Shown: positions 3,048 to 64,000 of the stretch, in pieces
How positions within the stretch are numbered: position 1 is the stretch's first letter
How the letters are laid out: every line of letters begins with the position of its first letter
From: Methylobacterium mesophilicum SR1.6/6
Lineage (GTDB): Bacteria; Pseudomonadota; Alphaproteobacteria; Rhizobiales; Beijerinckiaceae
Length of the DNA stretch: 64,000 nucleotides
Direction of reading: 5' to 3'
Assembly: GCF_000364445.2 (NCBI RefSeq)
Contig: NZ_CP043538.1
Coordinates: 2,859,612-2,923,611 of the forward strand
Position numbers and translations under genes: made by a program
The notes under the pieces: model-generated
What the model was told of the DNA's origin: nothing
What the model saw: only the letters and a program-made list of their open reading frames with translations
Database searches by the model: none

Positions 3048-3217
3048 GCAATCTCCTGGGCGTGGGCCGACGCGATGCCGGCGATGATCGGAGCGGCGCG
3101 CTCGGAGAATCCGGTCGCGTCGCCGCGGAACGAGGGCGGCTCTATGCTTCGACGGCCGCCCGAAGGCGGTCAAGGCGCGGCGAGGTCCGCTGACCCCACC
3201 GCGCCCGTCCGTTCAGA

Positions 3218-4495
3218 TCACTCGGCGGCGATCTTCTGCACCACCCCGATGGCGCCGGATTCCGCGATCTCGCCGACTTCCGCCTCGGAGTAACCCAGGA
3301 CCTGGCGGAGGATCTCGTCCGTGTGCTCACCCAGAAGCGGCGAGCGCTTGACGTCGCTCGGGCTGGCCGAGAGCTTGATGGGGTTGCCCACCGTCAGGTA
3401 CTTGCCGCGGGTCGGATGATCGACCTCGACGATAGTGCCGGTCTTCCGCAGGGCCTCGTCCTCGGCGATCTCCTTCATCGACAGGATCGGGCCGCACGGG
3501 ATGTCGTGCTTGTTGAGGGTGTCCATCACCTCGAACTTGGACACCTTCATCGTCCAGGCTTCGATGCGCGTGAAGATCTCATTGAGATGCGGCAGGCGGG
3601 CCTTCGGAGTCGCGTAGTTCGGGTCGTTCTTCCAGTCGGGCTCGCCGATGATGTCGCAGATCGGCTCCCAGACCGCCGCCTGGGTGATGACGTAAATGTA
3701 GGCGTTGGGATCCTGCTCCCAGCCCTTGCAGCGCAGGATGCGCCCCGGCTGGCCGCCGCCGGAATCGTTGCCCGCGCGCGGCGTTGCCTCACCGAACGGG
3801 ATGCCCTCGCCGAACTGGCTGTACTCCTTCAGCGGACCGTGCTCGAGGCGCTGCTGGTCGCGAAGCTTGACGCGGCACAGGTTGAGCACGCCGTCCTGCA
3901 TGGCGCAGTCCACCCTCTGGCCGAGGCCGGACTGCGTGCGGTGGTAGAGGGCGGTGACGATGCCGAGGGCGAGGTGCAGGCCGGTTCCGGAATCGCCGAT
4001 CTGCGCGCCGGTCACCATCGGGATGCCGTCCCGGAAGCCGGTGGTCGAGGCCGAACCGCCAGCGCACTGGGCGACGTTCTCGTAGACCTTGCAATCCTCG
4101 TAGCGGCCGGGACCGAAGCCCTTCACGGAGGCCAGGATCATCCGCGGGTTGGCCTCGTGGATCTTCTCCCAGGTCAGACCCATGCGGGCCAGCGCTCCGG
4201 GGGCGAAGTTCTCGACCAGGACGTCGCATTCCTTGATGAGGCGCCAGAGCACCTCCTTGCCTTTGGCATTCTTGGAATCGAGCGTGATCGAGCGCTTGTT
4301 GTGATTCAGCATCGTGAAATAGAGGCTGTCCACCTCCGGAATGTCCTGAAGCTGCTGACGCGTGGCGTCACCGACCCCCGGCCGCTCGACCTTGATCACG
4401 TCCGCGCCGAACCAAGCCAGGAGCTGGGTGCAGGTCGGGCCGGATTGGACATGGGTGAAGTCCAGGATGCGGACGCCTTCGAGGGCCTTGGTCAT
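3218..4495 (-). CDS. frc: Formyl-CoA:oxalate CoA-transferase
   Basis: A 425-residue class III (CaiB/BaiF) CoA-transferase, close to the 428 residues of Oxalobacter Frc. Asp168 in AQIGDSGTG matches the Asp169 that forms the aspartyl-CoA intermediate, and a glycine loop SGGGQPG matches the mobile GGGGQP loop that gates the active site. The cytosolic reaction moves CoA from formyl-CoA to oxalate, giving oxalyl-CoA and formate. With the antiporter upstream and the formyltransferase downstream it forms an oxalate locus. The partner oxalyl-CoA decarboxylase is not in view. Confidence 0.9.
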
Positions 4496-4950
4496 GATCG
4501 GTCTCGGTGTTGGAGGACGGGGTTCGGGATTGTGGGGGGCGGCTCAGGCCGCCCTGAGAAACGGCGGGGTACCTTCGGCAGGCAGCGACCGCCGGTCCGC
4601 TCCGCGACAGTCCGCGCTGTCCATCCTCCGACGGATCATGTCTGCACTCCCTGTCACAGCGCGGTCTCGTCGTGTCGCGACACCGTCATTCGGCCTCGAT
4701 GTTACGAGTCTCGAAGTTTGTATACCACATGCCATTCGTCGGACGCGAGTACCCGCCAGCGGTGGCATCGTTCTCATTCAACGCCTGACCGTAGGCTGAC
4801 AATCCGGTCTACTCAACAGCGGTGCCTGGGCGCAGTCGCGGGACCACCCGCGGCGGCCCTTGGCTTTCGGGCCCGTGCGGTCCATGATTTCGTCAAAATG
4901 GTCGCCCCGCGGGGTCGACCGAGCGAAGCAACGCTGAACGAGGAACGTCC
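4496..4950. other. Non-coding region upstream of frc
   Basis: About 455 bases with no convincing gene; open frames here are fragments of a long antisense frame over frc. The region must hold the frc promoter. The only motif of note is a GTATAC core near 4719-4724 within TTTGTATACCACA, resembling the half-palindromes bound by FadR-type GntR regulators. No regulator gene is adjacent, so this is a weak suggestion. Confidence 0.4.
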
Positions 4951-5235
4951 ATGCTCGCCAGCACCAGCCTGATCAAGTCGTCCTGGATCGCGGTCGATGT
5001 CGGCCATGACCGGGCCGAGCGCGTTCTCGTGGTCGAGACCTACATTGCCGTAAGTCCGCTAGAGCCGAATTACGACGCCGCCCAGTATGAGCGCGTCCTC
5101 GCCTGCGTGCAGAGGGTCCTGAAGACCCATCCGGAGATCGACCGTGCGTCGATCCTCAGCATGCATCGCGGCTCCGGCTGCACGGCGCTCTTCCGCGATC
5201 CGCCCGCGACCGCCAAGCAGCCCGCGGCTGCGTGA
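4951..5235 (+). CDS. Hypothetical protein, 94 aa
   Basis: A small, probably cytosolic protein that I do not recognise. It has no signal peptide or membrane segment. The middle (about residues 35-75) reads as an amphipathic helix followed by a Cys-containing tail (GSGCTAL). A GAGGAA sequence stands at the right distance before the ATG, and the codon use matches neighbouring genes, which supports it as a real gene. It is flanked by a long intergenic region on one side and a convergent gene on the other, so context gives no function. Confidence 0.5.
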   Translation: MLASTSLIKSSWIAVDVGHDRAERVLVVETYIAVSPLEPNYDAAQYERVLACVQRVLKTHPEIDRASILSMHRGSGCTALFRDPPATAKQPAAA

Positions 5236-5308
5236 CCGCTGTCGGCGGGAGCGAACAAGTCCTATCGCCCAGCGGGAGACGGCAGCGATCCGCGCGCCGT
5301 CGGCAAGC

Positions 5309-5995
5309 CTAGGTACTGCTGGACGAGTCCGGCGGCTCCAGAGCGGCGCGGGCCGCATGGAACCACCAGAGCGGGATGTCGCGGTTGGCCTTGGCCAGCT
5401 CCGAGGCCCAACCCTCCTTCGGCATGACCTCCGCTCGATCGGCGAAAAGGCGAAGCGCGCCCTCAGCCCGCTCCCGGCGGCACCGCTCCTGAATCGCCAC
5501 GCGCTCGGCCGCCGCCCGGGCCTCGGTCTGCTCCAGAAGCCGGTCCGTCGCCAGATCGTCGGCGTCGAAGGCGAATTGCTGCCAGAAGGCTTCCGCCTCG
5601 CGGGCGACATCCCTCTCGCGCCGCATCGTCGCCAGGGCGTCCTCGGCGATCCCCTGCGCCGCCTCGGCCGCTTCCGCCCGCGCAAGCATCCGGTTGTTCG
5701 CCGCGAGGAGCTCACGCTCGCGCTCGGGCGCCATCCTCTGGCGCCGCAGCACCCGCAACTCTTCCTCGACGGCGGATCGCGCCGCCGCATCGGTGAAGTA
5801 GCGCGCCAGCGGCCCCGCCACGAGGGCGTCGGCGCGTCGTAAATAGCGCTCACGCAGATCCGCATGCGCCGAATTCACGGCCAGATCGTCCCACGCGGGC
5901 AAGTCCGTGTCTCCGGCCTGATCGGAATCATACAGAGCGCGCGCAACGATCGTGCGCGGATGATCCGGAGATGATGTCGCGGAGGGCTCGTTCAT
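5309..5995 (-). CDS. Hypothetical coiled-coil-rich protein, 228 aa
   Basis: An unrecognised soluble protein dominated by Ala, Arg and Glu. From about residue 75 to 175 it shows heptad-like runs of charged residues (LRVLRRQRM, ALATMRRERD, RAAAERVAIQ), so a long coiled coil is likely. The N-terminal 30 residues are polar and probably disordered, and the C-terminus carries a short Trp-rich patch (IPLWWFHAAR). No signal peptide or transmembrane segment is present. It converges with the 94-residue gene, and the 233 bases separating it from the TetR gene hold nothing I can name. Confidence 0.6.
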   Translation of the reverse strand: MNEPSATSSPDHPRTIVARALYDSDQAGDTDLPAWDDLAVNSAHADLRERYLRRADALVAGPLARYFTDAAARSAVEEELRVLRRQRMAPERERELLAANNRMLARAEAAEAAQGIAEDALATMRRERDVAREAEAFWQQFAFDADDLATDRLLEQTEARAAAERVAIQERCRRERAEGALRLFADRAEVMPKEGWASELAKANRDIPLWWFHAARAALEPPDSSSST

Positions 5996-6228
5996 GAACC
6001 GGCACGGGCACTGGATGAGCGGCGAAGCCTACAACGCCTGAGAACCCTGGAAGAGACCAAACCGGTGCGACGAACCGGAAATTTTTCATGGCGCCGTCCC
6101 CTTGCCCGGATGGCGGCCTGGTCGAGCCTGTGTCCGCCCACCGGGATCGTCATGGCCCGCACCGGCGGCGCATCCCTGTCCGCGCCCCGATTGTTCCGAA
6201 CAGCCTCTCGACCGGCCGAACGGCAGTC

Positions 6229-52796: not shown

Positions 52797-52883
52797 TCGG
52801 CCGCAGCTTCGAGCTTGGCCTCTTCAAGCTTGGTCTTGGCGCAGGGCTTGCTAAGCTGATCCCGTCCGAAACGGGGTCCAACC

Positions 52884-53084: not shown

Positions 53085-53139
53085 CGACGCGCCCACGACT
53101 TGATACATCAATCCCGGTTTCGGTCGATGCCTTCCGGTC

Positions 53140-53235
53140 CGCTATCGCCGCGAGTCGAACGATGTGGCCAAGCAGCGCTTTGCCTGCCGAGGTGGCGCAG
53201 CCATGGGTCGCTGCGCTGCGCTCGCGATGACGACG
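53140..53235. repeat. Dispersed intergenic repeat remnant
   Basis: The sequence GTCGCTGCGCTGCGCTCGCGATGACGAC at its right end resembles the widespread alphaproteobacterial element ending in GCTTCGCTCGCAATGACG. It occupies most of the 170-base gap between the small membrane protein and the beta-propeller gene. A genome-wide copy count would confirm it. Confidence 0.4.
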
Positions 53236-53254
53236 CAAGCGACCGAGGGGGCTC

Positions 53255-54211
53255 TCAGCGCAGGAAGGTCCCGAAGGATCGAGGCCCGTTCCCGGTCGGG
53301 ATGGTCCTGACCACCTTCAGCGTCTGGGCGTCGAGAACGCTGAGGGTATTGTCACCCCAGTTGGCGACGTAGACCCGTCCGGTTTCGTCGGCTTCGATCC
53401 CTTCCGGATGGTCGCCCACGTCGATGTCGGTGATCGGCTTGAGCGTCGCGAGGTCGAACGCCGTGACGCTGCCGGCATACTGATCGGTGACGAAGCCGCG
53501 TCCGCCGACGAGGGCGATGACGTAGGGGCGACGCCCGGTCGGGATCCGGCCGATCTCGCGGCCCGCGGCGACGTCGATCACCGAAACGTCGTCGCCCGTG
53601 ACGTTCGCCGTGTAGGCACGCCCCGCGGCGGCATCGAGGGTGATGCCGAACGGATGCTGCCCCACCGGGATGACCGTCGCCTCGCGGCGCGTCGCCACGT
53701 CCACCACCGACACCGTGTCGGCCTCGCGGTTCGCCACGTAGAGCTTCGAGCCGTCCGGCGTGACGGCGATTCCCGAGGGCGAGGCGCCCACGGTGATCTC
53801 GCCGTCCGGAACCAGAGTGCCGTCCCGCTCGGCCATGACGAACAGGCGGTGCCCGTACCAGTCGGCCACGTAGACCCGGCCGCCGCGCGGATCGGCCGCG
53901 ATGCCCAGGGGACCGCCCGGCAACGGAACCTCCGCGAGGACGCGGCCCGCGTCGAGGTCGACCACCGCGACCCCGTGGCCTTCGGGCCGCGTGACATAGG
54001 CCCGCTTGCGATCCGCCGACAGCGCGATCCCAGCGGGCGCTCCGTCGACGGGAATCCGACGCACCACCGTGCCGGCGACGAGGTCGACGATCTCGACCGC
54101 GCCGCCGAGCTGGGCCGTGACGACCGCCTCCCGCGCCGGCGCCGCGAGGGCGCCCGACGCGATCAGCGCGAGGCCGGCGGCGAGCGCCGCGCGGCCCGGG
54201 CCGCGCCTCAC
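53255..54211 (-). CDS. YVTN-family beta-propeller protein (exported)
   Basis: A 318-residue periplasmic protein with a signal peptide (LAAGLALIASGALAAP) and about seven repeats of the form TPDGSKLYVANREADTVSVVD, the YVTN beta-propeller pattern. Related proteins occur in PQQ-dependent methanol and alcohol metabolism loci. It shares a GTGA overlap with the MxaD-like gene and closes the seven-gene minus-strand operon. A similar propeller (LutB) sits in the facing operon. A scaffold or chaperone role for a periplasmic dehydrogenase is inferred. Confidence 0.82.
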   Translation of the reverse strand: MRRGPGRAALAAGLALIASGALAAPAREAVVTAQLGGAVEIVDLVAGTVVRRIPVDGAPAGIALSADRKRAYVTRPEGHGVAVVDLDAGRVLAEVPLPGGPLGIAADPRGGRVYVADWYGHRLFVMAERDGTLVPDGEITVGASPSGIAVTPDGSKLYVANREADTVSVVDVATRREATVIPVGQHPFGITLDAAAGRAYTANVTGDDVSVIDVAAGREIGRIPTGRRPYVIALVGGRGFVTDQYAGSVTAFDLATLKPITDIDVGDHPEGIEADETGRVYVANWGDNTLSVLDAQTLKVVRTIPTGNGPRSFGTFLR

Positions 54212-54741
54212 GAGCCCTTCTCGACCTTCGCCTTCAGGTTGGCGAGGCTTGCCTTGATCCAGTCGCCGACGCCCTTCTCGGAGGCCTCGTCGTTCAGCTC
54301 GGGCGGCGGATCGTTGTTCATGTAGCCGCGGTAGAAGGCGGCCTTCCACTCGACCTTGGACTTGGCGTCGCCGGCCGGCTCGACCGTGATCGTGGCCGAG
54401 TAGTCGTTGGCCGGCAAGTCCTTCACATCGACCTTGTCGATGTAGTAAGAGTACATCTTTTCGTCCGGCTTGTACTTGTTGCTCGTCTCCGAGATCTGGT
54501 CGCCGTTCTTGAGCGTCAGAGTCCGCTTGAACTTGCCCGCCGGGTCGCCATTCAGCTCGGTCTTGGTGACGTTCTGGACCCAATCGGCGTTCTTCACGTC
54601 GCCGACGACCGCCCAGACCTTGTCGGCCGGAGCGTTGATCTCGATGGACTCGGTGATCTTGCGCCGGGTCGGGCCGTGGGCCTGCGCGGTCGCCGCCACC
54701 AGCGCCGCCGTGGCCGCCAGGGCCAGGGTAATTTTCTTCAT
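54208..54741 (-). CDS. MxaD-like SRPBCC protein (exported)
   Basis: A 177-residue protein with a signal peptide (ALAATAALVAATAQA) and a START/SRPBCC-like fold: ITESIEINAPADKVWAVVGD, then NGDPAGKFKRTLTLKNGD and ATITVEPAGDAKSKVEWKA. MxaD aids interaction of methanol dehydrogenase with its cytochrome in Methylobacterium. This copy is outside the mxa operon, so it may serve a XoxF-type, lanthanide-dependent enzyme. GGAG precedes the ATG. Its stop overlaps the propeller start. Confidence 0.82.
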   Translation of the reverse strand: MKKITLALAATAALVAATAQAHGPTRRKITESIEINAPADKVWAVVGDVKNADWVQNVTKTELNGDPAGKFKRTLTLKNGDQISETSNKYKPDEKMYSYYIDKVDVKDLPANDYSATITVEPAGDAKSKVEWKAAFYRGYMNNDPPPELNDEASEKGVGDWIKASLANLKAKVEKGS

Positions 54742-54762
54742 CTTGTCCTTCTCCTCCCGCCT

Positions 54763-55353
54763 TCAGCGGTCGTCGCGACCGAGGATGCGCGCCTCGGGGC
54801 CGAGCGCCGCCGCGACCTTGTCCTCGATCCAACCCCAGGCCTCGCGCTCGCGGGGTCCCGCGGTCTTGCCGATGGCGATGGCGAGATAGGCCATCTCCGT
54901 CAACACCTTCCCGGGCTCCAGCATGTGGAGCCGGGTCGAAAGTATGGCGGCCTCCAGGACGGCGGCCTGAGCCCGGTTATAGCCGATGAACGGCGCATGC
55001 GCGGCGCTGTGGACCATGCGTCCGCGGAAGCGCGGCCGGGTCTCGTGCTCCTCCACGGTCGCAACCTCGAACTCGGCGTGGCCGAAGCTGTCGGCGACGC
55101 GGCGGCCCGGGATGGCGTCACAGGCCTCCGTCGGCCACTCGCGTCGCCCGGTGACCGCGCCGGCAATGACCCGGATGTCGCGCGGGCTGGAGGCGGCGAA
55201 GCACGGATTCGCCTCAAGATTGGTGATGGTCGGTGACGGCCGGAACGGCGCCAGCACGTAGCCGTCCGCCTCACCGATCAGTCCGAAGGGAACGAGGTGC
55301 AGTTCGCCCGAAGGCGAGAGCGTCGTGACGATAGTCTCTAAGATCAGCGGCAT
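54763..55353 (-). CDS. DUF447 protein, methanopterin/methylofuran-associated
   Basis: A 196-residue flavin-reductase-like split-barrel protein of the DUF447 type. ETIVTTLSPSGELHLVPFGL, RPSPTITNLEANP and VRVIAGAVTGRR-type segments mark the family. Archaeal and methylotroph homologues cluster with tetrahydromethanopterin and methanofuran genes. Its reaction is unknown. ATG 55353 starts 4 bases after the previous stop. Probably one of the orf19-orf22 group of M. extorquens; I am not certain which. Confidence 0.75.
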   Translation of the reverse strand: MPLILETIVTTLSPSGELHLVPFGLIGEADGYVLAPFRPSPTITNLEANPCFAASSPRDIRVIAGAVTGRREWPTEACDAIPGRRVADSFGHAEFEVATVEEHETRPRFRGRMVHSAAHAPFIGYNRAQAAVLEAAILSTRLHMLEPGKVLTEMAYLAIAIGKTAGPREREAWGWIEDKVAAALGPEARILGRDDR

Positions 55354-55357
55354 CGGC

Positions 55358-56920
55358 TCATGCCCTGTCCGCCGGCACAAGCCGCCCGCAGACCAGCTTC
55401 GCGGGCCGGTCCTGGGAACCATCCGGGCCGGTCTCGTCGCGCGCTTGGATCTCCGTCACGGTCTCGGGCGGCCGGGCGTCGGCCTCGGGCTTCACGAGCC
55501 GGGCATCCCGAGTCCCGGGCGGCGGCGCGTCCGGCCCGGAATGCCGGGTGTGTCCGGCCTTCTTGAAGGCGGTGGCATCTTCGACCTCGGCGTCGGCGGC
55601 GCAACCCCAGTCGAGGGGCTCGTCCTGCACGTAGCGCTTGCCCAGCCGCCAGGCTGTCTCGGCCTTGGCGAGTTCCGCGCCGAGATAGAATGCATGGGCG
55701 CCGTCGCTGGCCACATCGAGATCGGGGAAGAAAGCCATCGCGTCGGTGCCGACCCTATGGATGTCGCGGTTGTAGACGTGGATCCCGTCTTTCGCGACCG
55801 CGATCCGGTAATTCGGGTCGCGCACCTCCGCAGCGGCTTGAACGACCTCTTCCGCAGTTTGCACGAAGGGGCGCTTGTCGTGCACGGCGAGAAGCGCCCG
55901 CCCGTAACCCTTGGGCAGCGCCGAGTCCGCCTTCGCCGCGTACATCACCCGCCGGGCCGCATCGTGCTCCTCGATGGTGCGGCGGGTGTGGTTGGAGACC
56001 TGGACGATCAGCACGTTGCCGATCGACAACTCCGAGCACATGCCGACGAGCAGCGCGGTCACGCCAAGCGAATCCGCCTCGGTCAGCTCGGTGAGATTGC
56101 CGGTGCCCATCATCATGGCGATGTCGGGCCAGCGGGCGCGAGTCTCGCGGTAGCGGGCGATGGAATCGACGAAGCCGTGATGGATCGGCTCGAGGATCGG
56201 ATCCGCCAGGAACGGCCGACCGGCCTCCAGCATCCGCGCGATGGCGCGATCGAGGGAGGGAAGGTCGTCCGGCCGCGTGGGAACGAGGATCGGCACCGCA
56301 TCGGTCTCGAAGGCGAGATCCAGGGTCTCCTCGTTCAGGCTCAGCAGATAGTCGGCCCCGGCGCCCGCACCGCGGGCGAGTTCGTCCCGCGAGAAGGAAT
56401 CCACGCTGACCTTGAGGCCGGCTTTCTTCAGTGCACGGACGGATTCCTCGAGGTGCGGGAACGGCGTGTCGGGCAGGCCGCCGAGATCGATGACGTCCGC
56501 GCCGCGCCGGGCGAGGTCGAGCCCCTTCGCCAGGATCTCCGCGACGCTCATCTTCGAGGCATCGACGATCTCGGAGAAGATCCGCAGATCGTGGCGGGAG
56601 AGGTCGACCTTGCGGGCGGTGAGCCCGAGCCAGGCCGGGAGGTCGACCACCTCGTCGGGGCCCCGCTCCACCGGCACGCCGAAATGCGCGGCGAGATGCT
56701 CCGGGTTGGCCCGGCAGCGTCCGGGCAGGATGACCCGGGTGGCCCCTTCCGGCAGCGCGACGCGGCGGCGGATGATCTCCTCGGTCATCAGCGCCGCGAC
56801 CTTCACGCCGGCATCCGCGATGCTCCAGCGGAACCGGTCCGGCAGGCCGGCCGCCACTTTCTCCAGGCGCGCGCGGGCGAGGCGGCCCGTGACGAAGACG
56901 ATGTGCTCGGATGCGCTCAC
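55358..56920 (-). CDS. Dihydropteroate-synthase-like protein of C1-carrier biosynthesis
   Basis: A 520-residue protein. The central part (about 165-370) has the TIM-barrel layout of dihydropteroate synthase-related proteins (GADVIDLGGLPD, VSVDSFSRDELARGAGAGADYLLSLN, FLADPILEPIHHG). The N-terminal 150 residues are a separate domain (HIVFVTGRLARARLEKVA). The family is shared by methanogens and H4MPT-using methylotrophs. A role in forming the pterin-arylamine part of methanopterin, or in methylofuran, is proposed in the family; I cannot tell which. It overlaps the kinase gene by 4 bases. Confidence 0.82.
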   Translation of the reverse strand: MSASEHIVFVTGRLARARLEKVAAGLPDRFRWSIADAGVKVAALMTEEIIRRRVALPEGATRVILPGRCRANPEHLAAHFGVPVERGPDEVVDLPAWLGLTARKVDLSRHDLRIFSEIVDASKMSVAEILAKGLDLARRGADVIDLGGLPDTPFPHLEESVRALKKAGLKVSVDSFSRDELARGAGAGADYLLSLNEETLDLAFETDAVPILVPTRPDDLPSLDRAIARMLEAGRPFLADPILEPIHHGFVDSIARYRETRARWPDIAMMMGTGNLTELTEADSLGVTALLVGMCSELSIGNVLIVQVSNHTRRTIEEHDAARRVMYAAKADSALPKGYGRALLAVHDKRPFVQTAEEVVQAAAEVRDPNYRIAVAKDGIHVYNRDIHRVGTDAMAFFPDLDVASDGAHAFYLGAELAKAETAWRLGKRYVQDEPLDWGCAADAEVEDATAFKKAGHTRHSGPDAPPPGTRDARLVKPEADARPPETVTEIQARDETGPDGSQDRPAKLVCGRLVPADRA

Positions 56921-57492
56921 GCCGCGGCCCTCGCGGTGACCGGAACCGGGCCGCTAGGTCCCCAGATCTCGATCCGCCCTGCATAACGCGCCGCGAAACT
57001 CGGGAAGGCGGCGTCCACCAGCCCATCCTGAGCGAGCGCCGCGGCATCCTGCGCCGGTGCCGCGTCGCGGGACTTCACCAGCACGCAGCTTTCCGCGTCG
57101 ATCCGGCCCGCGAGCCAGAGCGCGAGGCTGTCGGAGGTCACGTCCCAGGTCTCGGGGATATCGGGATGGCCGGCCCGCAGCCGGCGCGGGTTCCACACGC
57201 GCGCGGTGGCCGATCCGGCCTCGGCCCAGGGCTCGAAGGTCTGGACGAGTCGCGGCTCGATCCCGCGGAAGATGCCGGCCGCGTCACTCATCGCGTCCAG
57301 CGCCCGGCGGTGGGCTTCGGCGTCGCTGAAACCCTCCCGCATCTGCGCGGCCCGCACGGCACCCGCGAATGTGCCGCCCCCCGGCACGATGATGCAGCGC
57401 CCATGCGTGCCGTCCGCGAGCCGAGCCAGCAGCGCGCGCCGGCGGTGGGGATCCGCTTCCAGGCTCCCGCCGACCTTGACGATCACCGTCAC
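56917..57492 (-). CDS. Amino-acid-kinase-fold protein, methylofuran-associated (MfnE-like)
   Basis: A 191-residue protein. VIVKVGGSLEAD, IIVPGGGTFAGAVRAAQ and WDVTSDSLALWLAGR are amino-acid-kinase landmarks. In methanogens the related MfnE phosphorylates the furfuryl phosphate made downstream of MfnB, giving a diphosphate for methanofuran. GTG at 57492 overlaps the mfnB stop (GTGA), which sets the start. It probably acts in the cytosol in the same route here. Confidence 0.8.
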   Translation of the reverse strand: MTVIVKVGGSLEADPHRRRALLARLADGTHGRCIIVPGGGTFAGAVRAAQMREGFSDAEAHRRALDAMSDAAGIFRGIEPRLVQTFEPWAEAGSATARVWNPRRLRAGHPDIPETWDVTSDSLALWLAGRIDAESCVLVKSRDAAPAQDAAALAQDGLVDAAFPSFAARYAGRIEIWGPSGPVPVTARAAA

Positions 57493-58190
57493 GCGGCGTC
57501 CCGCCGGCTGGGCCGCAGGGCACGCAGAGCCTCGGCGATCCGTAGGGGATCGATGCCGTTGCGCCGGTCGAAGTCGCGGCACAGGCCGCCGCGGAATCCG
57601 AGGTAGTCCGATCCGTGTCCCGCCAGGATCGGAATATCGATAGCCCGCAGCGAGCCCGCGAGACCGCTCATCAAGTGGTGGCGACGGCAGGCGGCGGTGA
57701 AGGCCGCCAGATCCTCCGGCGCGGTCAGGTCGGGCAGACGGACGCCGCCCTTGCCGGCCGTGTCGATCATGGCACCCGCGAAGCCCGCTTCCGCCAGGGC
57801 GGGCACCAGCGTGGCGGCGGGTCCGTCCTCCGCGAAGAGCACGGCAATGAGCCGTCCCGGCGCCGCAGCGGCCAAACCGGCGAACGCCGACTTGTCCCGT
57901 CGGCGGGGCGCATCGAGGCCAGCCTTCACCCAGTCGACCCCGGTCGCCGCCATGGCGGCGACGGCCGGCGGCGTCGGGTCGGCCACGGCGCTCGTCTCGC
58001 TCGCGCCGGCGACCCGGCCGACGATCTCGCGGACGATATTCGGGTCGAGGGCGCCAAGGGCCCCCCGTTCGGGATCCTTGGCGTCGATCAGGTCGGCGCC
58101 AGCGAGCCGCGCGACCTCGGCCTCGGCCGGATCGCGGACGCTGACCAGGAGGCGCGGGTGGGAATCGACTTTGACGTGGGACGCGGGCAC
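57489..58190 (-). CDS. mfnB: (5-formylfuran-3-yl)methyl phosphate synthase (MfnB)
   Basis: A 233-residue TIM-barrel enzyme of the DUF556 family. Family marks are LLVSVRDPAEA, DLIDAKDPERGALGA (with the Lys that forms a Schiff base), VDWVKAGL, MIDTAGKGG and DYLGFRGGLC. MfnB makes the furan phosphate from two glyceraldehyde-3-phosphates. In Methylobacterium the product goes to methylofuran, cofactor of formyltransferase/hydrolase. It starts 27 bases after the DUF3280 gene. Confidence 0.88.
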   Translation of the reverse strand: MPASHVKVDSHPRLLVSVRDPAEAEVARLAGADLIDAKDPERGALGALDPNIVREIVGRVAGASETSAVADPTPPAVAAMAATGVDWVKAGLDAPRRRDKSAFAGLAAAAPGRLIAVLFAEDGPAATLVPALAEAGFAGAMIDTAGKGGVRLPDLTAPEDLAAFTAACRRHHLMSGLAGSLRAIDIPILAGHGSDYLGFRGGLCRDFDRRNGIDPLRIAEALRALRPSRRDAA

Positions 58191-58217
58191 GGTGGACTCA
58201 ACTTGTGACGGAACGCC

Positions 58218-58760
58218 TCACGATCTTCCGGGCAGCGGCTCGGCGAGAAGGCGGTTCTTCACCACCCAGCGCATGGCGTGAGCCCAGGTATCGTCGGTGT
58301 CGGCCCTGATCGTCACCTGTCCGCCCCGCACCACCTTGCCGGTGCCGGCCTCGGCGATGGAGACGTTCAGGTTGAAGATCTGACCGGACCCTTTCTCCAC
58401 ATAACCCGTCACGACGAGGTCCGCACCCAGGCTCTTGCCGATATCCGTCGCGCAGCCGTTGCACTTGTAGAGCGGTCCTTCCTTGGCCACGACATCGGCC
58501 TTGGGCGCCGTGTCGACGATCTCCAGGCCGGCCTGATCGTGGAGAGCCTTGCGCAGCTCGTCGGTGACGAGCGCGAGCTTCTTGGTGTCGGCTGGTCGCG
58601 CCCGGGCGCCATATGAGGCGCCGGGATCGAACAGCTCCACGGGGAAGACGGCCGCCTTGTCGGCCGCCTGCGCGGCGCCGGGCAGCGCGGCTCCGAGCGC
58701 GACGAGCCCGCACGCGGCCGCCACCCGGAGGGTCAGGTGACGCATGGTCAGGAGACGCAT
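58218..58760 (-). CDS. DUF3280 exported protein
   Basis: A 180-residue periplasmic protein with a signal peptide ending AAQAADKA. ADTKKLALVTDELRKALHDQ, YKCNGCATDIGKSLGADLVVTGYVEK and GQVTIRADTDDTWAHAMRWV fit the DUF3280 (DUF2380-like) family. A CNGC pair of cysteines (about residue 99) is notable. Function unknown; relatives travel with PQQ-dehydrogenase loci. First gene of the minus-strand operon, divergent from lutA. Confidence 0.78.
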   Translation of the reverse strand: MRLLTMRHLTLRVAAACGLVALGAALPGAAQAADKAAVFPVELFDPGASYGARARPADTKKLALVTDELRKALHDQAGLEIVDTAPKADVVAKEGPLYKCNGCATDIGKSLGADLVVTGYVEKGSGQIFNLNVSIAEAGTGKVVRGGQVTIRADTDDTWAHAMRWVVKNRLLAEPLPGRS

Positions 58761-58944
58761 GGGCGGTGCCTTCCTCTCGCAGTCCTGCCACCCGGTTCGG
58801 CGGCATCAATTCCGGCATAGGTCGGGCGAAGGGTCAATTTGGCAATGTACTTCGGGCCTTCGCTGACCCAGGACGGGAACGTGAACGTGGGGACCACCGG
58901 CCGCGGTTGAGCGACCGGAGCGGAAGCTGATAGAGGCCGCGCCT
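58761..58944. promoter_or_regulatory. Divergent promoter region between the methylofuran operon and the lut operon
   Basis: A 184-base gap that must drive both operons. I see no strong inverted repeat or consensus -35/-10 pair. Lanthanide or methanol response is expected from the gene content but no operator can be pointed out. Confidence 0.4.
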
Positions 58945-60171
58945 ATGCACGATCCTGCACTCGAGACCACCGTCCGGCGTCCGACATGGCGGCGCGCAGC
59001 GCTCGCCGTGCTCGCGCTGGCGCCGATCCCCGCCTGGGCGCAGCAGCCCGCACCCCAGCCGATCGATACCCATGTCGGCCTGATCTACCGGCCGCAGCCC
59101 GCACCATCCTCCTACGATGCCGAGGCGGCGCCGGAGGACGAGGGGCTCGCCGGCGCCAAGATGGGCATCAACGACAACAACACCACCGGCCGATTCACCA
59201 AGCAGACCTACGCCCTCGACGACGTGGCATTGACCGACGACAAGGCCGATCCGGTGGCGGCCGCAAAGGATCTCGTTGCCAAGGGCGTGCGCTACCTCGT
59301 TCTGGCGCTGCCCGCAGACGCCGTCCTGGCCGTCGCGGACGCGGTGAAGGATTCGGGCGCCGTGGTGCTCAATGCCGGCGCGCCCGACGACCGCCTGCGC
59401 GGGGCCGATTGCCGGGCCAACGTGTTCCACATCCTGCCGTCGCGGGCCATGCTGACCGATGCCCTGGCGCAGTACCTCACCGTCATGCGCTGGCGGAAGC
59501 TTTTCCTGATCGTCGGTCCGACGGAGGCCGACAAGGCCTATGCCGACGCGGTGCGCAATTCGGCGCGGAAATTCGCGCTGAAGATCACCGCCGAGAAGCC
59601 CTGGACCTTCGGTCCCCTGGCCAAGGCGCGGGGCGACACGCCCACCCGCGCGGAGGCCATGGTCTTCACTCGCGGCCTCGACTACGACATGGCGATCGTC
59701 GCCGATGAAGAGGGCGACTGGGGCGATTACGTCCCTTACCGCACGGTCGATCCCCGGCCGGTGGGCGGCACGCAGGCGCTGACGCCGACCACGTGGTCGC
59801 CCGTGCTGGAAACCTGGGGCGCCGCGCAGGCCCAGAATCGCTTCCGCCGGCTCGCCGGTCGGCTGATGCGGCCGCTCGACTATCAGGTCTGGGCGGCGGT
59901 GCGCACGGTCGGCGAGGCCGTCACCGCCAAGAAGACCAACGACCCGGCGGTCATCGGGCCCTACCTCGTCGAGCCGGACTTCACGCTGCCGGCCTACAAG
60001 GGCGTGCCGCTGAGCTTCCGCCCCTGGGACCACCAGCTGCGCCAAGCGATCATCGTGGTTCAGCCGAAAGCGCTGGTCTCGGTGGCGCCGGAGCAGGGCT
60101 TCCTGCACCAGCGCACGCCCCTCGACACGCTGGGCGTGGACCTCCCGGAGACGACCTGCAAATTCAAATGA
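58945..60171 (+). CDS. lutA: ABC transporter substrate-binding protein of the lanthanide uptake cluster (LutA)
   Basis: A 408-residue periplasmic protein with an N-terminal signal (WRRAALAVLALAPIPAWAQ). The fold is the branched-chain-amino-acid/amide type binding protein (VALTDDKADPVAAAKDLVAKG, AVVLNAGAPDDRLRG). Acidic, Asn-rich stretches (GINDNNTTGRF, DEEGDWGDY) could help bind a metal or metallophore. In M. extorquens lutA is the periplasmic binding protein for Ln3+ import. Gene order with the next six genes matches lutA-lutG. Confidence 0.85.
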   Translation: MHDPALETTVRRPTWRRAALAVLALAPIPAWAQQPAPQPIDTHVGLIYRPQPAPSSYDAEAAPEDEGLAGAKMGINDNNTTGRFTKQTYALDDVALTDDKADPVAAAKDLVAKGVRYLVLALPADAVLAVADAVKDSGAVVLNAGAPDDRLRGADCRANVFHILPSRAMLTDALAQYLTVMRWRKLFLIVGPTEADKAYADAVRNSARKFALKITAEKPWTFGPLAKARGDTPTRAEAMVFTRGLDYDMAIVADEEGDWGDYVPYRTVDPRPVGGTQALTPTTWSPVLETWGAAQAQNRFRRLAGRLMRPLDYQVWAAVRTVGEAVTAKKTNDPAVIGPYLVEPDFTLPAYKGVPLSFRPWDHQLRQAIIVVQPKALVSVAPEQGFLHQRTPLDTLGVDLPETTCKFK

Positions 60172-60292
60172 CACCCCCGCCTGCGGCGATGTCGAGCGGC
60201 ACCGACCCTCGCAACGCGCGGAAATCGCACTACAATTGGCTGACGAGAACGTCCCGCGAGGACGTCGGGAAGTCGCAAGGGAAGGGAATGGC

Positions 60293-61276
60293 ATGAGCCG
60301 CCGCGTCGAGGCAGGTCTGAGCGTGTTCGCCCTCGGTGCGTGGTTCGCCCTCTGCGGGCCGGCCGCCGCCTACACGGCCTACATCACCAACGAGAAGGGC
60401 AATTCCGTCAGCGTCATCGACACCAATACGATGGCCGTGACCGCGACCTGGAAGGTGGGCCGCCGCCCGCGCGGGGTGACCGTGTCGAAGGACGGTAAAG
60501 AGCTGTTCGTCTGCGCCAGCGACGACGACCGTATCGACGTGCTCGACACGAGTTCCGGCAAGGTCGTGCGCTCGCTGCGCTCCGGGCCGGATCCGGAGCA
60601 GTTCATCCTCGATGCCTCGGGCAATCCCCTCTACGTGGCCAACGAGGACGACAGCCAGGTCACCATCATCGACATCGAGAAGAACAAGGTGCTGGCCGAG
60701 GTGCCGGTGGGCGTCGAGCCGGAGGGGATGGGCCTGTCGCCGGACGGGAAGATCCTCGTCAACACCTCCGAGACGACCAACATGGCCCACTTCATCGACA
60801 CGAAGACCTTCCAGGTCATCGACAACGTGCTGGTGGATGCCAGGCCGCGCTTCGCCGAGTTCACCGCGGACGGAAAGTTCCTCTGGGTGTCCGCTGAGGT
60901 GGGCGGCACAGTGAGCGTGATCGACGTGGCCCAGCGCCGGGTCGTCAAGAAGATCACCTTCAAGATTCCGAGCGTGAACGACGAGGCGATCCAGCCGGTC
61001 GGCATCCGGATCACCAAGGACGGAACCAAGGCCTTCGTGGCGCTCGGTCCAGCCAACCGGGTCGCGGTGATCGACGCCAAGTCCTATGAGGTCGAGAAGT
61101 ACCTGCCGGTGGGCCAGCGCGTCTGGCAGCTCGCCTTCACGCCGGACCAGAAGATGCTGTTCACCACGAACGGCACCTCCAACGACGTCTCGGTGATCGA
61201 CGTGGCCGCCGAGAAGGTGGTCAAGAGTATCCCGGTCGGCCTGCTGCCCTGGGGCGTGGCGATCTCGCCGAATTGA
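60293..61276 (+). CDS. lutB: YVTN-family beta-propeller protein of the lut cluster (LutB)
   Basis: A 327-residue exported propeller. Signal peptide about 1-24 (GAWFALCGPAAAYTA). Repeats such as NEKGNSVSVIDTNTM, SKDGKELFVCASDDDRI, SPDGKILVNTSETTNM give six to seven blades. Its position second in the cluster matches lutB of M. extorquens. Similar in plan to the propeller at 53255. GGGAAGGG precedes ATG 60293. A metal-handling or dehydrogenase-assembly role is inferred, not shown. Confidence 0.78.
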   Translation: MSRRVEAGLSVFALGAWFALCGPAAAYTAYITNEKGNSVSVIDTNTMAVTATWKVGRRPRGVTVSKDGKELFVCASDDDRIDVLDTSSGKVVRSLRSGPDPEQFILDASGNPLYVANEDDSQVTIIDIEKNKVLAEVPVGVEPEGMGLSPDGKILVNTSETTNMAHFIDTKTFQVIDNVLVDARPRFAEFTADGKFLWVSAEVGGTVSVIDVAQRRVVKKITFKIPSVNDEAIQPVGIRITKDGTKAFVALGPANRVAVIDAKSYEVEKYLPVGQRVWQLAFTPDQKMLFTTNGTSNDVSVIDVAAEKVVKSIPVGLLPWGVAISPN

Positions 61277-61342
61277 TCCCGGCTGACACGGACGCCGCAA
61301 CGGACAGGCCGCGGAAGCCGCGACCGAAGGTTAGGGAACGAC

Positions 61343-61777
61343 ATGACGCGTATGTTTCAGACGGCGGCCCTGGCTCTGGCGGGGCTGCTCGCGGCCGGGG
61401 CGGCCAATGCCCTCGACCTGACCAAGAAGCGGGAGAACCTGCCGGATCTCGTGCTGGGCGACGATCAGGGCAACGATTTCGTGGTGGAGAACAAGGACAT
61501 CACGCTCGAGTCCGGCAAGGCCTATCGCCTGCGCATCGTCGCGAAGGGGCGCCAGGAATACAAATTCTACGCGCCGGAGTTCTTCCGGTACATCTGGTTC
61601 AATCAGATCGTGATCGAGCACAAGGAGATTCACGGCGGCGGACCGCCCGATCACCTCGAGTTCGATGATCCGGGCGAGATCGCCATCGAGTTCGTCGCCA
61701 TCAAGCCCGGCACCTACACGTGGGAGGCGCGCGGCTTGGAGGCGAAGGGCATGACTGGCACGCTGACGGTGAAGTGA
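61343..61777 (+). CDS. lutC: Exported cupredoxin-like protein of the lut cluster (LutC)
   Basis: A 144-residue periplasmic protein with a signal peptide (ALALAGLLAAGAANA). The beta-rich body FVVENKDITLESGKAYRLRIVAKGRQEYKFYAPEFF and closing GTYTWEARG suit a cupredoxin-like fold, but the usual Cys-His copper site is absent; His and Glu residues in EHKEIHGGGPPDHLEFDDPGE could bind another metal. The third place in the lut operon suggests lutC. TGATG overlap with the next gene. Confidence 0.72.
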   Translation: MTRMFQTAALALAGLLAAGAANALDLTKKRENLPDLVLGDDQGNDFVVENKDITLESGKAYRLRIVAKGRQEYKFYAPEFFRYIWFNQIVIEHKEIHGGGPPDHLEFDDPGEIAIEFVAIKPGTYTWEARGLEAKGMTGTLTVK

Positions 61778-62019
61778 TGCGCGTGATCTTGCTGGCCGCG
61801 TGCCTCGTCCTCGCGACCCCGGCCCTGGCCGCCGACGACGCCTCTTCCTGCGCCGAGGGCATCACGATGATCCGTGACGCTCTGGCTCTGAACCCGCCCG
61901 AGGCCGCGATCCCGAAGCTTAAGAAGGCCCTGCGCGTGGCCGAGCGCGAGCAGAAGGAGGGCGAGTTCGACGAGTGCCTCGACGCCGTCGCCGATGCCCG
62001 GAAGGTCCTGGGCCGATGA
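61777..62019 (+). CDS. lutD: Small exported protein of the lut cluster (LutD)
   Basis: An 80-residue protein with a signal peptide (MRVILLAACLVLATPALA) and a short helical mature part with two cysteines (SSCAEGIT and DECLDA). Its fourth position matches lutD. It overlaps both neighbours (TGATG and ATGA), so it is co-translated with the ATPase gene. No known domain. Confidence 0.68.
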   Translation: MRVILLAACLVLATPALAADDASSCAEGITMIRDALALNPPEAAIPKLKKALRVAEREQKEGEFDECLDAVADARKVLGR

Positions 62020-62765
62020 GCGGCGGGGACGCGGCGGCGCTCAAAGTCGATCACGTCGGCCACCGCTTCGGCAGCCGCGCCGCCCTCGACGACGTGTCGC
62101 TCACTGTTGAGCGCGGGCGCTTCGCGGCGCTTCTCGGGCCGAACGGCGCGGGCAAGACAACGCTATTCTCGGTGATCACCCGCCTCTACAACAACCAGAC
62201 CGGGCGGGTGTCGATCTTCGGGCACGCCCTGGACCGCGAACCCTCCCGCGCGCTCGCACGCCTCGGCGTGGTGTTCCAGGCCCGGACGCTCGACACCGAC
62301 CTCACCGTCGAGCAGAATCTCCTGTATCACGCGAGCCTCCACGGCATCGCCCGCGGCGCCGGGAAGGCCCGCGTCGGCGTGCTGCTCGACCGGGTCGGCC
62401 TCGCGGACCGGCGCCACGACAAGGTGCGGACGCTCTCCGGCGGCCAGTCGCGCCGGATCGAGATCGCCCGCTCGCTGATCCACCGGCCGGACCTTCTGCT
62501 GCTCGACGAGCCGACCGTCGGTCTCGATCTGGAATCGCGGGCCGACATCGTGGCGATCGTGCGTGCGCTGGTGCGCGAGGAAGGCCTGTCGGTCCTGTGG
62601 GCGACCCACATCTTCGAGGAGATCGCGCCCGAGGACGACGCGGTCGTGCTCCACCGCGGCCGGATCGTCGCCCGCGGCCGGGCAGGCGACATCGGCGCGC
62701 CCGGAGAAGGCTTGGCGGAGGCGTTCCGCCGAATCGTGGCCGAGCCGGGGAGGGCGGCGGCATGA
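62016..62765 (+). CDS. lutE: ABC transporter ATP-binding protein of the lut cluster (LutE)
   Basis: A 249-residue ATPase. Walker A GPNGAGKTTL (41-50), Q-loop VFQARTLD, signature LSGGQSRRIEIARS (140-153), Walker B LLLLDEPTVGLD (160-171) and an H-loop WATHIFEE are all intact. It energises transport with the following permease, as LutE does in lanthanide import in M. extorquens. Starts at ATG 62016. Confidence 0.88.
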   Translation: MSGGDAAALKVDHVGHRFGSRAALDDVSLTVERGRFAALLGPNGAGKTTLFSVITRLYNNQTGRVSIFGHALDREPSRALARLGVVFQARTLDTDLTVEQNLLYHASLHGIARGAGKARVGVLLDRVGLADRRHDKVRTLSGGQSRRIEIARSLIHRPDLLLLDEPTVGLDLESRADIVAIVRALVREEGLSVLWATHIFEEIAPEDDAVVLHRGRIVARGRAGDIGAPGEGLAEAFRRIVAEPGRAAA

Positions 62766-63619
62766 GGGCCGGTTCAGTTCCGCACGGCCGCATCGGCCGC
62801 CTCGATGCCGTCGGTTACCTGATATGCCTCGGCGGAATCGTACGCCGTGAACTGTTGCGCTTCTTCAATCAGAAGGAGCGGTTCTTCTCGGCCCTGGTCC
62901 GGCCCCTGGTGTGGCTTTTCATCTTCGCGGCGGGCTTCCGCAACACGCTGGGCGTCTCCATCGAGCCGCCCTACCAGACCTACGTGCTGTACGAGGTCTA
63001 CGTGGTCCCCGGCCTCGCCGTGATGATCCAGCTGTTCAACGGCATGCAGTCGTCCCTGTCGATGGTCTACGACCGCGAGGTCGGCTCGATGAAGGTGCTG
63101 CTGACCTCGCCCTATCCGCGCTGGCTGCTGCTGCTCGCCAAGCTGATCGCTGGCGTCGCGGTCTCCGTCGTCCAAGCCTACGCCTTCCTGGCTGTGGCCT
63201 ATTTCTGGGAGACCGATATCCCCCCGCTGGGCTACCTGACGGCGCTTCCGGCCTTCCTGGCCACGGGGCTGATGCTGGGCGCGATCGGCCTGTTCCTCTC
63301 GTCGCTGGTGCGTCAGCTCGAGAATTTCGCCAGTGTGATGAACTTCGTGATCTTCCCGATGTTCTTCGCCTCCTCGGCGCTCTACCCGCTGTGGCGGATC
63401 CGGGAATCCTCCGAGACTTTGTACTGGATCTGCGAGCTCAACCCGTTCAGCCACGCGGTTCAGCTCGTCCGCTACGCCCTCTACGTCCAGTTCGAGCCGG
63501 TCGCCTGTGCCGTGGTGGTGGGCGTGACGCTCGCCTTCTTCGGCATGGCGGTGGTCGCCTACGATCCCGGCCGCGGCATCATGGCCCGCCGGGGCGGCCC
63601 GGCCGGCGAGACCACCTGA
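62762..63619 (+). CDS. lutF: ABC transporter permease of the lut cluster (LutF)
   Basis: A 285-residue ABC-2-type permease with six hydrophobic segments (SALVRPLVWLFIFAAGF, VYVVPGLAVMIQLFNGM, RWLLLLAKLIAGVAVSVVQ, LPAFLATGLMLGAIGLFLSS, FVIFPMFFASSALYPLW, VVVGVTLAFFGMAVVAY). ATGA overlap with lutE. ABC-2 permeases usually export, so its use in an uptake cluster is worth noting. Confidence 0.85.
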   Translation: MRAGSVPHGRIGRLDAVGYLICLGGIVRRELLRFFNQKERFFSALVRPLVWLFIFAAGFRNTLGVSIEPPYQTYVLYEVYVVPGLAVMIQLFNGMQSSLSMVYDREVGSMKVLLTSPYPRWLLLLAKLIAGVAVSVVQAYAFLAVAYFWETDIPPLGYLTALPAFLATGLMLGAIGLFLSSLVRQLENFASVMNFVIFPMFFASSALYPLWRIRESSETLYWICELNPFSHAVQLVRYALYVQFEPVACAVVVGVTLAFFGMAVVAYDPGRGIMARRGGPAGETT

Positions 63620-63632
63620 TGGAGTCCGTCCG

Positions 63633-64000
63633 ATGAACCGTTCCGCTCACTGCATCCTCGGCCTGGCGTTCGGGCTCACCGGCTTGGCCGGCCCGGCGCT
63701 GGCGCAGCCCCGGCAGGATCCGGACTGGCCCTGCGTCCAGCGCAAGGTCGCATCCTTGAGCCCGGGCCAGTTCTGGACGGGGCCTGACATCGCCGCCGCG
63801 GGTGACTGGGGCAGCGACAATGACGCCGCGGTTCTCGCACAAAAGATCGCGTCCCGGCGCACGGAGCTGACGCAGGTCGGCCCCATGCTCGACGACTTCG
63901 CCGGCAAGTTCGGAACGGACAAGGACGCCAAGGACAAGGCGCTGACCCGCGTCTACGCGGGCGTCTTCGAGGTGCTCAACGGCGAGCGCGACAAGGTGAT
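63633..64000 (+). CDS. lutG: Exported protein of the lut cluster, cut by the window edge (LutG)
   Basis: The first 122 residues of a protein with a signal peptide (ILGLAFGLTGLAGPALAQP). The mature start has two-residue acidic pairs and Cys28-like PWPC-type segment (DPDWPCVQRKV), followed by an amphipathic helix (ASRRTELTQVGPMLDDFAGKF). The position after lutF fits lutG. The 3' end lies beyond the window. lutH (TonB-dependent receptor) and lanmodulin would be expected next. Confidence 0.7.
   Translation, partial: MNRSAHCILGLAFGLTGLAGPALAQPRQDPDWPCVQRKVASLSPGQFWTGPDIAAAGDWGSDNDAAVLAQKIASRRTELTQVGPMLDDFAGKFGTDKDAKDKALTRVYAGVFEVLNGERDKV

Follow-up and report, generated by a model that had tools for sequence, protein, structure and literature searches.

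A TTGCC promoter element suggests common regulation of a methylofuran operon and lanthanide-switch genes in Methylobacterium

In Methylobacterium mesophilicum SR1.6/6, an operon for methylofuran synthesis (mfn, minus strand) faces the lanthanide-uptake operon (lut, plus strand) within the 64,000-nucleotide stretch of DNA analyzed here (the window). On balance, we think that the mfn operon belongs to the lanthanide-switch regulon and that the two operons, each with its own promoter, would form one methanol-oxidation locus. The case rests on a TTGCC element that the mfn promoter shares with the rare-earth switch genes, which suggests a common regulator.

In the proposed mechanism, the plus-strand operon would import lanthanides for the periplasmic dehydrogenase XoxF, and the minus-strand operon, judged by homology, would make methylofuran, the carrier of carbon from XoxF-produced formaldehyde, and would supply exported dehydrogenase helpers (DUF3280, MxaD-like, and YVTN proteins). 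A single transcription factor, with a response regulator of the MxcQE/MxbDM cascade as the likeliest candidate, would bind the TTGCC element and so set formaldehyde production together with metal supply and formaldehyde disposal; lutA would answer to a second, separate signal. Formaldehyde disposal and metal supply need matching because lanthanide-dependent XoxF makes formaldehyde. The element would thus unite five promoters (both switch dehydrogenases, the metal receptor, lanmodulin, and the cofactor operon) and would account for a cofactor pathway adjoining a metal transporter. A 2024 review describes the exact mechanism of the PedH/PedE switch as unknown and raises the question of what in the cytoplasm is regulated by lanthanides (PMC11845868).

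The facing operons and their conservation

All seven minus-strand genes were recovered by profile matches with the families named for them in the sequence-only reading (Table 1), and both the divergence from lutA-G across exactly 184 bp (58761 to 58944) and the spacing of at most 27 bases stood (largest gap, 27 nt). Its description of most junctions as overlapping was half right: with the start codons likely used, three of the six junctions overlap by 4 nt (mfnB/mfnE, mfnE/dihydropteroate-synthase-like, and MxaD/YVTN); at the other three, the genes are separated by 27, 4, and 21 nt.

Table 1. Features of the facing operons (window coordinates, except for the last two rows)
Feature	Position	Strand	Details
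YVTN beta-propeller gene, last of mfn operon	53255..54211	-	TIGR02276, 172 bits; GTG start at 54211
MxaD-like gene	54208..54741	-	PF10604, 104 bits
DUF447 gene	54763..55353	-	PF20766 and PF04289; ATG at 55353
Dihydropteroate-synthase-like gene (DUF6513)	55358..56920	-	PF20123, 84 bits; TIGR00284, 195 bits (cut-off, 257)
mfnE-like kinase gene (orf21)	56917..57492	-	PF00696; GTG start inside mfnB stop overlap
mfnB (orf22), methylofuran-core enzyme	57489..58190	-	PF04476, 165 bits (cut-off, 22.4)
DUF3280 gene, head of mfn operon	58218..58760	-	PF11684
TTGCC element, mfn-operon promoter	58828..58845	-	14.7 bits, matrix trained on lutH sites
lutA promoter	58907..58936	+	TTGAGC 58907-58912, TAGAGG 58931-58936; ATG 38 bp past TTGAG
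lutA, ABC substrate-binding protein	58945..60171	+	TIGR03863, 473 bits (cut-off, 414)
lutB, YVTN propeller	60293..61276	+	TIGR03866, 528 bits (cut-off, 287)
lutC	61343..61777	+	No family; named by position
lutD, 80 aa, signal-peptide-like start	61777..62019	+	No family; named by position
lutE, ABC ATPase	62016..62765	+	TIGR03864, 341 bits (cut-off, 302)
lutF, ABC permease	62762..63619	+	TIGR03861, 383 bits (cut-off, 241)
lutG, truncated by window end	63633..64000	+	No family; named by position
lutG, whole	2745..3383		Genome locus L002
lutH	3546..6212		Genome locus L002

The window mfnB clears its family cut-off and stands together with the kinase, dihydropteroate-synthase-like, and DUF447 genes, which is the composition of the methylofuran synthesis block (orf19-orf22). 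Orf22 and Orf21 are homologs of MfnB and MfnE, respectively (PMC8141765); the kinase is named mfnE-like only, because it scored 49.6 bits against the NCBIfam equivalog model for MfnE (NF040622; cut-off, 300). Lying inside a methanol locus, the PF10604 protein is an MxaD-like accessory protein and, from its sequence, is predicted to be exported. The DUF3280 protein also looks exported; it has an invariant CxxC, and its predicted fold gave a whole-domain structural match to the TolB N-terminal/LpoB/CsgG-like fold. On the plus strand, LutA, LutB, LutE, and LutF exceeded their cut-offs in order and are followed by the LutH receptor (called from position and length at L002, with matching genus loci), which identifies a lut cluster; no family-model matches were found for LutC, LutD, or LutG. 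Lanthanide transport by lut products was shown in M. extorquens AM1 (PMC7391723). The YVTN protein of the minus-strand operon and LutB are 28% identical over 258 aligned positions (blastp).

Within the genus, 106 of 111 genomes have mfnB and lutA diverging at a distance of no more than 2.1 kb (genome G220, with a lutA match without a listed position, was counted as an exception). Among 47 sampled genomes from the order's other families that hold both genes (genus rows left out), 20 have the divergent pair within 6 kb, spread over 6 of the 11 families. The 80 titled loci comprised 43 paired, 25 unpaired, and 12 too short for judgement, with L237, whose lutA is split across two frames, entered as not paired. 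An mfnB tree with 122 rows (leaving out the 12 short loci, L237, and most of the genus) requires 7 changes in pairing, versus 39 with shuffled labels. The pairing is old, and the idea that it is peculiar to the genus was rejected: the family sample contains many relatives without it, and other families do have it. The refuting case put forward earlier, that most relatives would have the operons unlinked, applies to the sampled methanotrophs; it fails for the genus, for the sampled Mesorhizobium and Phyllobacterium loci, and for several other families. Functional coupling of the facing operons, earlier a conjecture, gains support from conservation of the pair well outside the genus. In Mesorhizobium and Phyllobacterium, bacteria of soil and plants, the conserved pair points to possible lanthanide methanol oxidation combined with the methylofuran pathway.

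The operons might instead adjoin because methylotrophy genes travel and persist as islands, with no specific regulatory tie between methylofuran synthesis and lanthanide uptake. An island with lut, PQQ, and methanopterin genes has been published for TMED127 (PMC12542740); among the 18 mfnB-bearing genomes of the class sample that fall outside the genus, 5 (scored by eye) have lutA 17 to 22 kb away on the same strand and not facing; and Methylobacterium mfnB clusters on the tree with other families and apart from methanotroph Beijerinckiaceae, as expected from transfer. Nonetheless, we consider this explanation rather unlikely, given that the head-to-head order recurs in distant families, with DUF3280 in between in several loci, and that the promoter element is common to switch genes elsewhere in the genome.

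Two promoter elements in the 184-bp intergenic region

Upstream of lutA, a TTGAG element was found in 68 of 70 distinct intergenic regions, with the ATG 38 or 39 bp further on in 65 of the 68, and the lutA promoter is conserved and probably leaderless; in the window, GAGG (58933 to 58936) could be an alternative ribosome site. Across 111 genomes, 46 of 47 matches to a CTTA-TTGAG form lie at lutA; no match occurs in the window's own genome. In other families, a search upstream of lutA did not find the genus lutA promoter element. For the mfn operon, TTGCCA would serve as the -35 and CCTATG (58816 to 58821) as the -10.

The earlier suggestion was that both operons share a single regulator that binds the 184-bp intergenic region; in its favor, the promoters stand back to back with 61 bp between them, both in the window and in five near relatives. 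Over 40 intergenic regions, however, the two promoter elements are separated by anything from 21 to 1109 bp, the CTTA element is almost private to lutA, and a TTGCC site of at least 14 bits faces DUF3280 in 20 of 38 genus intergenic regions and lutA in none (reversed control, 0). We regard such a regulator as highly improbable. With its own promoter at lutA and variable spacing, the region holds no fixed two-way switch, and a single two-way promoter was rejected because promoter spacing is not fixed. A foldable operator between the promoters was likewise rejected (z 0.9), scanning for consensus promoters and terminators gave no match, and Rfam gave no family at gathering score over 52000 to 64000. 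Shared control with lanthanide genes thus finds no support through the common intergenic region, and finds it instead in an element common to the promoters of mfn, lutH, lanM, xoxF, and mxaF.

The TTGCC element at switch genes

At the mfn operon, the element takes the form TTGCCRAA-N3-TCCC; a looser form lies upstream of lutH at 28 of 28 loci and of lanM at 8 of 8. A fixed-spacing search of 11 genomes, mostly chosen for an element already seen there, had the mfn-operon promoter as its sole match in the window's genome. The window copy is weak: of 418 background stretches, each 1.1 kb long, 6 (1.4%), probably including the window's own site, also reach at least 14 bits. The mfn-operon promoter stands above background across the genus and modestly so in the window alone. 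Eighteen of the 38 genus intergenic regions have no site at 14 bits, including all ten other loci without a lutH match, and in those other families where lut and mfn are paired, the mfn promoter showed no strong site (15 bits).

An unbiased word-pair count found TTGCC-N6-TCCCG upstream of lutH at 24 of 28 loci (commonest pair in one shuffled set, 3). The strict pattern matched 45 times in 879 kb, always upstream, at lutH (22), DUF3280 (19), and lanM (4); at 16 bits or more in 1.28 Mb, a matrix trained on lutH sites found 37 lutH, 17 DUF3280, 8 lanM, and 1 unexplained site (control, 0 in both searches), counts that are not independent, as the sequences are related. Among 16 matches of at least 15 bits in 2.55 Mb, the element precedes lutH in three loci from other genera (L184, L246, and L273) and lutA in one further locus (L189).

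Near the active-site Asp of PQQ dehydrogenases, D-Y-D marks the lanthanide type and D-Y-A the calcium type. By these motifs, L349 (HDEWDYDG) is assigned as XoxF and L350 (HDEWDYAG) as MxaF. In the window's own genome, the lutH-trained matrix scored 28.1 bits upstream of xoxF and 22.2 bits upstream of mxaF (the latter scored in this one genome), against 9.2 bits or less at the other three of five PQQ-dehydrogenase genes compared, one of the five being below the family cut-off. None of 418 background stretches reached 18 bits, and none of 1000 column-shuffled matrices equaled the xoxF/mxaF result. In three of five other genomes, xoxF sites reached only 10.1 to 12.4 bits (opposite-strand matches listed from 12 bits up).

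The element might alternatively be the -35 site of a sigma factor for methanol genes rather than a lanthanide-responsive operator, since at DUF3280 it occupies the -35 place and, in part of the genus, is followed about 18 bp later by a CTATG-like -10. We find this improbable: the element at lutH is often paired, 22 bp apart, strong xoxF sites lie about 450 to 610 bp upstream, two of three genomes having them on the opposite strand, and a -10-like sequence is not common to the promoters.

More tentatively than regulon membership itself, we propose that TTGCCRAATNNTCCCGG is the lanthanide-switch operator, at which one regulator might control xoxF, mxaF, lutH, lanM, and the methylofuran/MxaD operon in much of Methylobacterium. 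If this reading of TTGCCRAATNNTCCCGG is true, metal supply, dehydrogenase choice, and formaldehyde disposal follow one signal. One site would have to serve opposite effects, because lutH is repressed by La (fourfold; PMC7391723) and lanM is La-induced. In strain 22A without mxcQE, the lanM promoter is weaker and its La response is lost (PMC9260416). La relatively represses methylofuran-pathway genes in that strain (PMC5784242), whose best lutH match lies away from the other lanthanide-uptake genes (PMC9260416); its data may not apply here, because loci without lutH are without the site.

Comparison with known systems

Among mostly openly accessible papers, none was found on the facing lut/mfn pair or the TTGCC element, nor was a DNA site found for the MxbDM/MxcQE switch, to which we link the element by inference. 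A short conserved hexamer was reportedly described in a 2003 mapping of AM1 mxa promoters, so a motif at mxaF may have been noticed earlier.

The AM1 lut cluster (META1p1778-1787; PMC7391723) has the same lut order up to lutH, with the A/B/E/F models, in line with the sequence-only reading. It likewise has an MxaD homolog seven locus tags before lutA (META1p1778), namely META1p1771, which was found in an XoxF1 transposon screen (PMC7391723) and of which the window MxaD-like gene is the probable positional counterpart. The accessible text of that paper does not present the facing operon as a single entity. Unlike the AM1 cluster, the window genome's 20 kb including lutH (L002) showed no EF-hand (lanM-like) gene.

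The orf19-orf20-afpA-orf21-orf22 island of M. trichosporium OB3b (PMC3615186) has the same block of mfnB, mfnE-like, dihydropteroate-synthase-like, and DUF447 genes. Its afpA, part of the published order and not defining for function, has no counterpart in the window, where no gene lies between the kinase and dihydropteroate-synthase-like genes. Unlike that island, the window block is flanked by DUF3280, MxaD-like, and YVTN genes, and in the sampled methanotroph loci the block does not adjoin lut. The TMED127/Methylaequorales island (PMC12542740) likewise brings lut, PQQ, methanol-oxidation, and methanopterin genes together within about 45 kb. If genome L310 belongs to this group, as its lutABEFCG order suggests, the island differs from the window in that lut and mfnB are not arranged face to face there. 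The MxbDM/MxcQE switch is reported to act on xoxF, mxaF, and (MxcQE) lanM, all of which carry the TTGCC element here.

Layout and distribution of the facing operons

The stretch occupies positions 2,859,612-2,923,611 of a one-contig 6.56-Mb genome. Family searches confirmed the names that the sequence-only reading had given to the minus-strand genes and to lutA, B, E, and F. Its description of the spacing held for the gaps (27, 4, and 21 nt; none above 27 nt) but not for "most" genes overlapping, as a 4-nt overlap occurs at three of six junctions. The gene arrangement is confirmed and predates the genus.

Genes of the facing mfn (minus-strand) and lut (plus-strand) operons, in window coordinates; minus-operon coordinates rest on likely start codons
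Feature	Coordinates	Strand	Remark
DUF3280	58760-58218	-	likely start codon
mfnB	58190-57489	-	likely start codon
kinase (mfnE-like)	57492-56917	-	likely start codon
DHPS-like	56920-55358	-	likely start codon
DUF447	55353-54763	-	likely start codon
MxaD-like	54741-54208	-	likely start codon
YVTN	54211-53255	-	likely start codon
lutA	start 58945	+	
lutG	truncated by window end	+	lutH next in genome

All 111 genus genomes carried mfnB, and 110 carried lutA (E 1e-60). By coordinates, the two genes were divergent in 106/111, with 864 to 2,072 bp (median, ~1,024 bp) between matches. Among the exceptions, three genomes (G108, G152, G244) had the genes on separate contigs, one (G220) had its lutA place not among the matches listed, and one (G183) had no lutA, with a lutG remnant adjoining a broken DUF3280 (locus L140). 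L140 nonetheless keeps mfnB, the kinase, the DHPS-like gene, and DUF447. The complete seven-gene set lay opposite lutA in 35 of 40 fetched genus regions; the other five were L130 and L153 (only mfnB and DUF3280 matched), L140, and two stretches of G108 (L141, L142).

In a sample of the organism's own family (149 genomes), mfnB and lutA were far apart, by eye, in complete genomes outside the genus; in two draft genomes (G043, G106) the distance was ~12 kb, also by eye. In an order sample of 293 genomes, 51 genomes outside the family had mfnB, and lutA lay opposite within 6 kb in 20 of these; for the other 31, the genes were within 20 kb (6), far apart on the same contig (8), or on separate contigs (13), or lutA was missing at E 1e-90 (4). 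The facing pair was found in 6 of the 11 families. Titled loci (n = 80) comprised 43 paired, 25 unpaired, and 12 too short; those paired included Mesorhizobium ciceri WSM1271, Phyllobacterium, Pseudaminobacter, Aquamicrobium, Nitratireductor, Xanthobacteraceae MAGs, and two Acetobacteraceae MAGs. Pairing was absent from Methylocystis, Methylocella, and Methylocapsa loci of judgeable length and from one of two Methylosinus loci, the second being too short. Several paired loci have DUF3280 separating mfnB from lutA, and two other families show the complete set again, MxaD and YVTN included (L296, L297, L306; L300). On an mfnB tree (122 rows; quick tree, simple model), pairing required 7 changes against a shuffled mean of 39, four of them forced by starred branches, and Methylobacterium grouped with other paired families, away from methanotrophs. 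Either the pairing is ancient, then, or it was transferred as a unit; the tree does not distinguish the two. In six loci of other genera (L165, L171, L177, L211, L246, L273), the mfn block, lutG, or lutAB directly adjoins xoxF/xoxJ.

Promoters between DUF3280 and lutA

TTGAG with a TAG-type -10 was found upstream of lutA in 68/70 distinct genus intergenics. The ATG follows TTGAG by 38 or 39 bp in 65 of these 68, which leaves almost no leader, so the lutA transcript is probably leaderless; alternatively, GAGG ahead of the lutA ATG in the window could serve as a ribosome site. A direct repeat (CTTA-N7-CTTA-N11) precedes this promoter in many genus genomes, with 47 matches in 46/111 genomes (reversed pattern, 3), all but one of which lie at lutA according to their coordinates, and no match in the window's own genome. 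Upstream of the lutA promoter, the window's clade has a AACGTGAACGT repeat in place of the CTTA repeats (58878-58888 in the window).

The DUF3280 promoter carries TTGCCAAA followed by a -10 that is either CTATG-like or of TTA type. Eleven genomes, most of them chosen because the element was present, were scanned with its fixed-spacing form, and nine had a single match, located at this locus. The distance between the DUF3280 and lutA promoter elements is 61 bp in the window and in five relatives; across 40 intergenics it is 21 to 1,109 bp, and a single fixed two-way switch is unlikely given this spread. The proposed control of both operons through their common intergenic was thus not upheld, each having its own promoter.

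A TTGCC element shared with lanthanide-switch genes

An unbiased word-pair count placed TTGCC-N6-TCCCG upstream of lutH in 24/28 loci (maximum in one shuffled set, 3), and TTGCC-N6-TCC in 28/28, frequently as two copies 22 bp apart; it is the same element as at DUF3280. In its stricter version, TTGCC[AG]AA-N3-TCC, it had 45 matches in 879 kb of genus sequence (reversed-sequence control, 0): 22 ahead of lutH, 19 ahead of DUF3280, and 4 just past lutH, upstream of lanM (recognised by EF-hands). Within 420 kb of one genome it occurred only at DUF3280 and lutH. TTGCC-N6-TCCC lay 229 to 260 bp before the first EF-hand in all eight loci with a lanM gene. Three loci from outside the genus (L246:18953, L273:16906, L184:18783) likewise have the element ahead of lutH, so it may be older at lutH than at the mfn operon.

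A matrix trained solely on the 28 lutH sites was scanned over 1.28 Mb. With a cut-off of 16 bits, sites numbered 37 before lutH, 17 before DUF3280, 8 before lanM, and 1 unexplained (control, 0), the sequences behind these counts being related; at 14 bits or more, unexplained matches numbered 5 (control, 0). Of 38 intergenics, 20 had a DUF3280 site of at least 14 bits and 18 did not; every such site was on the strand of DUF3280, none on that of lutA. The fetched locus included lutH for 19 of the 20, the twentieth being the window, with lutH just past its end. The site was absent from all ten other loci without a lutH match, one of which (L154) is on a contig that starts 2.5 kb beyond lutG; L130, L131, L134, L136, L137, L139, and L153 have no lutH match after lutG and a DUF3280 promoter without TTGCC.

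Best scores upstream of the five PQQ-dehydrogenase genes identified in the own genome (one below the family cut-off) were 28.1, 22.2, 9.2, 3.6, and 3.4 bits; in the background set (418 stretches, 1.1 kb each), no stretch reached 18 bits and six reached 14, and 0/1,000 column-shuffled matrices gave a second-best score as high as 22.2. One high-scoring enzyme has D-Y-D, the lanthanide type of PQQ dehydrogenase, and the other D-Y-A, the calcium type; by this rule they are XoxF (28.1 bits) and MxaF (22.2 bits). The xoxF site is 601 bp before the xoxF ATG, on the opposite strand, and the mxaF site ~230 bp before the mxaF ATG. Among five other genomes, two had xoxF sites scoring 23.3 and 19.1 bits, and the other three reached only 10.1 to 12.4 bits. 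Own-genome copies scored 14.7 bits at DUF3280 and 18.0 and 15.2 bits (22 bp apart) at lutH. A second lutA occurs in many genomes of the genus, and a second lutA/lutB pair adjoins another PQQ dehydrogenase in L197 (own genome, 5,627,743-5,647,742); the lutH matrix found no TTGCC site upstream of that dehydrogenase.

According to section 9 of PMC7391723, lutH drops fourfold with La in AM1; excerpts of PMC9260416 describe a La-responsive lanM promoter in strain 22A, weaker and unresponsive without mxcQE. mxaF and xoxF are the two poles of the lanthanide switch. On the simplest reading, one regulator, probably a response regulator of the switch cascade (MxcQE/MxbDM), would act at the lutH, lanM, xoxF, and mxaF sites, with the sites themselves observed in sequence and binding, direction, and signal presumed, and would also act at the methylofuran/MxaD operon in much of the genus. 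With one regulator at all sites, the cell would keep formaldehyde disposal in step with its metal supply and with the dehydrogenase in use. Shared control, not through the common intergenic but through an element common to switch genes and the mfn operon, is better supported, and we consider it somewhat probable; its weakest points are the 18/38 intergenics without a site, the middling window score, and the relatedness of the sequences.

Known counterparts

Homologs of MfnB, MfnE, and MfnF are given as Orf22, Orf21, and Orf9, respectively, in the relevant part of PMC8141765, and the island order as orf19-orf20-afpA-orf21-orf22 in that of PMC3615186. The MxaD-like gene of the mfn operon is doubled in tandem in 7/35 complete genus regions (L122, L124, L125, L128, L144, L145, L157), so META1p1771 and META1p1772 of AM1 would both be of the MxaD family. 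Passages of PMC7391723 report the MxaD homolog META1p1771, seven locus tags before lutA (META1p1778), as a hit when genes for XoxF1 function were screened; its loss reduced the growth rate on methanol plus La (0.11 versus 0.16 per hour), and the discussion counts it among genes needed only when La is supplied.
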